Under the pieces are notes generated by a model that saw only the letters and a list, made by a program, of their open reading frames with translations, ran no database searches and was not told where the DNA came from. DNA of 64,000 nt from Thermoproteota archaeon (GTDB taxonomy: Archaea; Korarchaeota; JAOZGF01; JAOZFZ01): positions 186,001 to 250,000 of the forward strand of contig JAOZFT010000004.1 of NCBI GenBank assembly GCA_027492035.1, in the 5' to 3' direction. The position numbers and the translations under genes were made by a program. Positions 45,764-46,169 of the stretch are shown in pieces. Within the stretch, counting starts at the first letter, position 1. Each line of letters opens with the position of its first letter.

Positions 45764-46087
45764 CTAAGACGTCCTTTTTAAAGTTATTTCAATTAATGAA
45801 ACGTTCCTTTCTCCTCCCTCCCCACCTGTTAAAGTTTCTGTTCCTATTGTCACATTTGACACTTCTACGGCGTCCTGCAGAAACCTATTTTTTGTTATTT
45901 CTGCTACATCCACTGCTTTGCTTATTGATTTGCCTCTAGCCTTTATAATTACTGAATTTTTCCCTTGGTTAAATTGCAGAACAGTTGCTAATACATAATT
46001 CATAGTTGGTGTGCGCCCGTGTCTTTTAAAAACTATAGATCACGGATTACGCCCAATATAGATTTCTCCAGCTTCTTCACTAGTCAC
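45764..46087 (-). CDS. alba: Chromatin protein Alba, gene interrupted by a 36-nt BHB intron
   Basis: Alba is a small dimeric DNA/RNA-binding chromatin protein. Exon 1 is 46047-46087 (GTG start, GGAGG nine nt upstream; ATG 46093 is an alternative) and encodes MTSEEAGEIYIGR plus two bases. Exon 2 is 45764-46010 and encodes the remainder. Joining them gives IGRKPTMNYVLATVLQFNQG, the conserved Alba N-terminus including the DNA-contacting lysine; the product is 95 residues, normal for the family. Without splicing, exon 1 meets TGA after three more codons, and a product from ATG 46003 would lack the first strand and the lysine. Confidence 0.9.
46011..46046 (-). other. Bulge-helix-bulge intron in the alba mRNA
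   Basis: Minus-strand pairing: outer helix TTGG (46053-46056) with CCAA (46006-46009); central helix GCGT (46049-46052) with GCGC (46013-46016), one G-U pair; bulges AAT (46046-46048) and ACA (46010-46012), each exactly 3 nt; inner helix CCGTG (46041-46045) with CACGG (46017-46021). Cutting after the second base of each bulge, as tRNA splicing endonuclease does, removes 36 nt and joins CGT AA to A CCA, making a Lys codon. The intron has an in-frame TGA. Confidence 0.9.
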
Positions 46088-46157
46088 GTGCATACACCTC
46101 CATCTTTTTTCCTGTTCCTTTGAATGCTCTGACAATGTTTTGAAATACCTATTTATT

Positions 46158-46169
46158 CCTTTATAAAGG
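46158..46169 (-). promoter_or_regulatory. TATA-like element upstream of alba
   Basis: CCTTTATAAAGG lies about 70 nt upstream of the alba start on the minus strand; it is itself palindromic. A transcript from here would have a leader of roughly 45 nt and would include both BHB halves. Confidence 0.4.

Follow-up and report, generated by a model that had tools for sequence, protein, structure and literature searches.

The source genome is that of a heat-loving archaeon. Its single alba gene, which lies in the 64-kb window (the whole stretch of DNA that was analysed), is split by a 36-nt insert that is very probably a bulge-helix-bulge (BHB) intron removed by EndA/RtcB splicing. An earlier note on this DNA had proposed such a protein-coding intron, removed by the tRNA splicing endonuclease, and the proposal is strongly supported by structure, protein restoration and comparative genomics. 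Alba binds DNA and RNA generally, so that production of a major chromatin protein would depend on splicing. As predicted from the sequence, the intron is one of the very few known cases in archaeal mRNA.

In the interrupted gene (Table 1), a 79-codon open reading frame (ORF) at 46003-45764 on the minus strand encodes Alba without its first strand. The upstream segment from 46093/46087 reads (MHV)TSEEAGEIYIGR, ends with IYIGR and continues with AAT CCG TGA. The truncated ORF, its upstream part and the 36 nt between them all match what the earlier note had described, with two corrections. First, the missing part had been placed in another reading context; the insert is a multiple of three (3 x 12), the two exons share the same frame, and the break is made by the in-frame TGA. 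Second, the gene range had been started at ATG 46093, whereas GTG 46087 is the likelier start, given the GGAGGTG 7 nt before it. Inspection of the sequence before the internal ATG 46003 revealed no Shine-Dalgarno motif. As to the inactive protein that the earlier note had expected from unspliced mRNA, translation from the GTG gives a 15-residue peptide, and translation restart at 46003 on such mRNA is conceivable. The TATA-box-like CTTTATAAAGG is a plausible promoter of the intron-containing transcript.

Excision of 46046-46011 joins AA to A in a lysine codon, yielding a protein of 95 residues from the GTG that begins V(M)TSEEAGEIYIGRKPTMNYVLATVLQ. The standard BHB cuts give IGRKPTMNYVLA at the junction, which is the family consensus that the earlier note had expected. 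The functional lysine it had named is indeed restored by rejoining the codon; more precisely, it is the second residue of the usual KK/RK pair. Against the AlbA profile NF003088 (curated cut-off 90), the spliced protein scores 123.5 bits over profile positions 3-91 of 92, a gain of 20 bits over the downstream ORF alone, which scores 103.3 bits from position 16 and is still above the Alba cut-off. Spliced Alba thus matches its family (PF01918/NF003088) along the whole length, and solved Alba structures align with it along its length. The peptides IYIGRKPTMNYVLA, IYIGRKPTMNYVLATVLQFNQGK and IGRKPTMNY belong to this spliced form. A second intact alba, which would have spoken against an intron according to the earlier note, was not found in the 93%-complete source genome.

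Structural analysis of the junctions revealed a canonical hBHBh' motif, with an outer helix of 4, a central helix of 4 and an inner helix of 5 base pairs and two 3-nt bulges, as expected of archaeal EndA-type substrates. The helices and bulges listed in the earlier note proved exact in the sequence, and a cut between nucleotides 2 and 3 of each bulge restores Alba. The motif is the minimum-free-energy structure predicted by RNAfold (-14.5 kcal/mol); its z-score of -2.3, with 5 of 200 shuffles equally good, is modest when taken alone. The alba motif ranks first among the strict BHBs on both strands of the window, and no second site of its strength (4+4+5 pairs, at most one GU, pair score of at least 34) occurs on either strand of contig C9 (666,448 bp). 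In 20 first-order Markov shuffles of the contig only one such site appeared altogether (a mean of 0.05 per contig), and the chance of a BHB of this strength is about 3e-10 per candidate junction pair. Among the junction pairs in alba that restore G[KR][KR]PxM[NS]Y, this one alone carries a BHB.

These features enable us to propose a putative splicing pathway. The alba pre-mRNA would fold such that TTGG/CCAA, GCGT/GCGC and CCGTG/CACGG pair and the two 3-nt bulges are exposed. In each bulge, EndA would then cut behind nucleotide 2, and RtcB would ligate the exons into a mature mRNA encoding full-length Alba of 95 residues, while the excised 36 nt would probably circularise. A regulatory role for splicing in setting the level of Alba, as raised in the earlier note, is speculation.

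Table 1. Features of the interrupted alba gene (window positions) and related loci on contig C9 (positions prefixed C9)
Feature	Position	Strand	Description	Basis
alba gene, interrupted	46087-45764	-		
alba exon 1	46047..46087	-	V(M)TSEEAGEIYIGR from GTG, plus bases 1-2 (AA) of the Lys codon	sequence, translation
Predicted alba intron	46011..46046	-	BHB, 36 nt, TCCGTGATCTATAGTTTTTAAAAGACACGGGCGCAC	coordinates, protein restoration, fold
alba exon 2	45764..46010	-	Lys codon base 3 through stop codon	
In-frame TGA	46042-46040	-	within the 36-nt insert	
Shine-Dalgarno-like GGAGGTG	46095..46101	-	7 nt before GTG 46087	read from sequence
TATA-box-like CTTTATAAAGG	46158..46168	-		read from sequence
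Outer helix	46056-46053 / 46009-46006	-	TTGG / CCAA	
Central helix	46052-46049 / 46016-46013	-	GCGT / GCGC, one GU	
Bulges	46048-46046 / 46012-46010	-	AAT / ACA, cut AA^T, AC^A	
Inner helix	46045-46041 / 46021-46017	-	CCGTG / CACGG	
BHB 5' half, exon 1 side	46046..46056	-	outer TTGG, central GCGT, bulge AA^T	
BHB 3' half	46006..46021	-	inner CACGG, central GCGC, bulge AC^A, outer CCAA	
cbf5 locus, source genome	C9:309500-311100		BHB intron	
Predicted glyA intron	C9:442602-442569	-	serine hydroxymethyltransferase; 34 nt, frame-shifting	
EndA ORF	C9:443178-444005		one copy, both PF01974 units in a single ORF	
RtcB	C9:453481-454788		one copy	

Our sample of the phylum (Korarchaeota) comprised 29 genomes, in which the family of the source genome (G000) has one other genus, represented by G001 (Thermoproteota archaeon Flange_M5_B4, contig JAOZFL010000110.1). 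Its single alba is also interrupted, at nearly the same place: ...EIGEIYIGKKPT is followed by a 62-nt insert with a TGA and then by MNYVLATVLQFNQGK.... This insert does not evidently resemble its G000 counterpart, and its length is no multiple of three; its removal in silico restores IGKKPTMNYV. The junction favoured by folding splits the Met codon and is displaced by 8 nt downstream relative to that of G000, with a central helix CCAC/GTGG and bulges AA^A and TA^T. An alternative central helix, ACCC/GGGT, would give the identical protein and was rejected, as CCAC/GTGG folds better. The search of relatives suggested by the earlier note did find an interrupted alba in the sister genus, but the predicted intron is a different one (62 nt, at a shifted site). 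In our reading, a different predicted intron in the sister genus is the decisive support for an intron in alba. Over the 59 codons of exon 2 compared between the two genera, pN is 0.10 and pS 0.80 (saturated), indicating that alba of both is under strong purifying selection. Above-cut-off Alba matches are present in 26 of the 29 genomes; in the 24 besides these two, the match starts at profile position 2, that is, alba is uninterrupted. In G002, of the same order and 71% complete, no convincing alba was found. In a larger archaeal phylum (299 genomes), all of the best matches listed start at profile positions 1-3, which argues against common alba introns there.

Three other explanations were weighed against these data. 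In the first, exon 1 is a leader peptide only, the 79-residue Alba lacking strand 1 is made from ATG 46003, and the hairpin is regulatory or arises by chance. That this ATG coincides with the MNYV motif and that the short ORF scores above the cut-off would fit such an arrangement, yet it remains very improbable, given that the Shine-Dalgarno-like motif precedes exon 1 and none precedes 46003, that exon 1 codes the conserved strand-1 IYIGR/K in both genera despite their differing inserts, that the spliced form scores higher, and that a chance BHB at this place would be so rare. Slightly less probable still is translation through the insert, by TGA readthrough (recoded or suppressed) or ribosome hopping, whose product would be an Alba that may or may not contain 12 inserted residues. 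An in-frame insert with one TGA in G000 would permit it; however, in G001 stop readthrough is excluded because an insert of 62 nt leaves a frame that reading through does not restore, and in the other aligned Alba proteins strand 1 leads to MNYV with nothing inserted. A degenerate gene or assembly error, for which both assemblies are fragmented enough (42 and 220 contigs), is just as improbable as readthrough: two separately assembled genera have inserts that differ from each other yet occupy almost the same site, their exons are under strong purifying selection, and neither genome has a second alba in a phylum where the gene is nearly always found.

Splicing thus remains the preferred explanation, against which the following points can be raised. 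The outer helix is weak both in G001 alba and in G000 glyA (see below), so that these junctions would require relaxed recognition; the two assemblies are of metagenome type and consist of many contigs; and published cbf5 splicing is tied to hetero-oligomeric EndA (PMC2738675), whereas the source genome encodes a fused chain rather than an (alpha-beta)2 enzyme. The genome does possess both EndA and the tRNA ligase RtcB. A single ORF encodes EndA with its two PF01974 units, both here and in all four further genomes of the sample that gave a match. The C unit comes nearest to the catalytic alpha chains of crenarchaea, with which it aligns (2cv8, 3p1z), and its YGVDF, EHS and RKK stretches would fit the Tyr-His-Lys triad; the N unit is similar to 2zyz_A, a non-catalytic beta chain. 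A lysine of the C unit, within GIRKPKS, aligns with the KP at K44 in the crenarchaea-specific loop of the Aeropyrum enzyme, and this loop lysine of crenarchaeal EndA was reported to give a broad substrate range (PMC6379350). Korarchaeal EndA has been described as alpha4- or alpha2-type (PMC4090602). Judged by its sequence, the korarchaeal arrangement appears to stand midway from the alpha'2 to the (alpha-beta)2 type, and a fused EndA that bears a loop of the crenarchaeal type might explain how the korarchaeal enzyme type and cbf5 introns can go together. Messenger RNA introns in a lineage with a single fused EndA chain would test the idea that a hetero-oligomeric enzyme is required.

The same lineage offers a positive control in cbf5, which the earlier note had cited from Crenarchaeota as the established precedent, correctly so: splicing there at the catalytic Asp site was confirmed by cDNA in several species (PMC2738675). 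We found cbf5 interrupted in nine genomes of our sample (G000, G001, G002, G017, G024, G008, G009, G011 and G023). The introns are 15-33 nt long, always have a 4/4 central helix and always lie between bases 1 and 2 of the catalytic Asp codon (GTL-G|AY-P), exactly the crenarchaeal site (PMC2738675). The gene is intact in Korarchaeum-like loci, G004 included, and in the other intact genus checked; Korarchaeum cryptofilum cbf5 was published as intronless (PMC2738675). No report of korarchaeal cbf5 introns was found in open-access PubMed Central text. These introns show that mRNA introns exist in the lineage and that our method finds the right junctions; their occurrence at the crenarchaeal site points to a cbf5 intron that arose earlier, or was gained more than once.

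The BHB scans covered contig C9, or 36% of the genome. Ignoring coding information, the scan gave 16,559 weak hits, many of them by chance; candidates were therefore kept only if excision rejoined two coding-like frames and the protein was recognisable. Of the 88 candidates in the scan that included coding frames, alba and glyA tied for first and no other stood out. The predicted glyA intron combines a central helix of 4 bp with an inner helix of 8 bp or more and a weak outer helix, and its removal gives GHRYAEGWPGERVYAGCKY within a 441-residue open frame. Literature in open-access PubMed Central text yielded no glyA intron. The serine hydroxymethyltransferase profile match begins at position 50 in G000 and at 5-20 in the other matching genomes of the phylum, G001 included, and the intron is likely private to G000. 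Taken together with alba and cbf5, contig C9 alone holds three likely intron-bearing protein genes, and other contigs may hold further mRNA introns.

To our knowledge, cbf5 has for two decades been essentially the sole archaeal coding sequence known to contain a spliced intron. A 2020 paper called it the only other BHB intron reported in archaeal mRNA (PMC7714728), and the statement in the earlier note that no alba intron is known agrees with the open-access PubMed Central text found, this paper included. The cbf5 introns of Desulfurococcales and Sulfolobales (16-44 bp) and the 36-nt alba intron are both short BHB introns in a housekeeping coding sequence, with cuts predicted to fall between the second and third nucleotides of the bulges (PMC2738675) and a host protein that is broken unless spliced. 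They differ in that alba is a different gene in a different phylum, and its intron does not sit at a position homologous to the catalytic Asp codon of cbf5; in that its BHB is canonical, whereas those of cbf5 are mostly unconventional; and in that its intron is confined to one family, where the sister genus carries another at a shifted site. The 46-nt mRNA BHB intron of Haloferax volcanii HVO_1309 is cut by EndA in vitro and was seen as circular RNA (PMC7714728); it lies in the 5' UTR and leaves the reading frame uninterrupted, in contrast to alba, whose coding sequence is split. Archaeal tRNA and rRNA introns share the identical splice motif, a 4-bp central helix with two 3-nt bulges (PMC6379350), but the alba host is an mRNA with no tRNA body to aid recognition. 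Putative 12-bp introns of an archaeal virus genome (cited in PMC2738675) were likewise proposed as small introns in protein genes; splicing was not demonstrated for them and they may be translated, whereas the stop codon in alba makes removal necessary.

On balance, we lean slightly towards the view that this family actively gains or relocates BHB introns in housekeeping mRNAs, given two different alba introns in two genera, a glyA intron confined to G000 and introns retained in cbf5 in much of the phylum. On this view it would be the first lineage of archaea in which several protein genes bear introns, with splicing by an EndA fused into a single chain. Such introns in alba, glyA and cbf5 of one phylum would show that EndA-mediated mRNA splicing reaches more widely and is still evolving, and the alba introns would offer a young case for the study of archaeal intron gain. 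Automatic annotation conceals such introns by calling truncated genes.

Suspected introns in tRNA genes were also encountered on contig C9. At 355520, 420133 and 310892, ARAGORN found no tRNA, spliced or unspliced, and the candidate at 348047 was rejected, as ARAGORN gives an unspliced tRNA-Ser on the opposite strand. Near G001 alba, ARAGORN with introns allowed found no tRNA; a tRNA-like sequence upstream of that gene (G001:C27, about 600-800), GGGGCCGTAGTCGAG...GTGGGTTCAAA...CCCACCGGCCCC, appears intron-bearing. On the plus strand of C9, ARAGORN recognised a tRNA-Thr at 323915 and a tRNA of undetermined type at 458557 solely after in-silico intron removal, and both introns likely sit in the T-loop.
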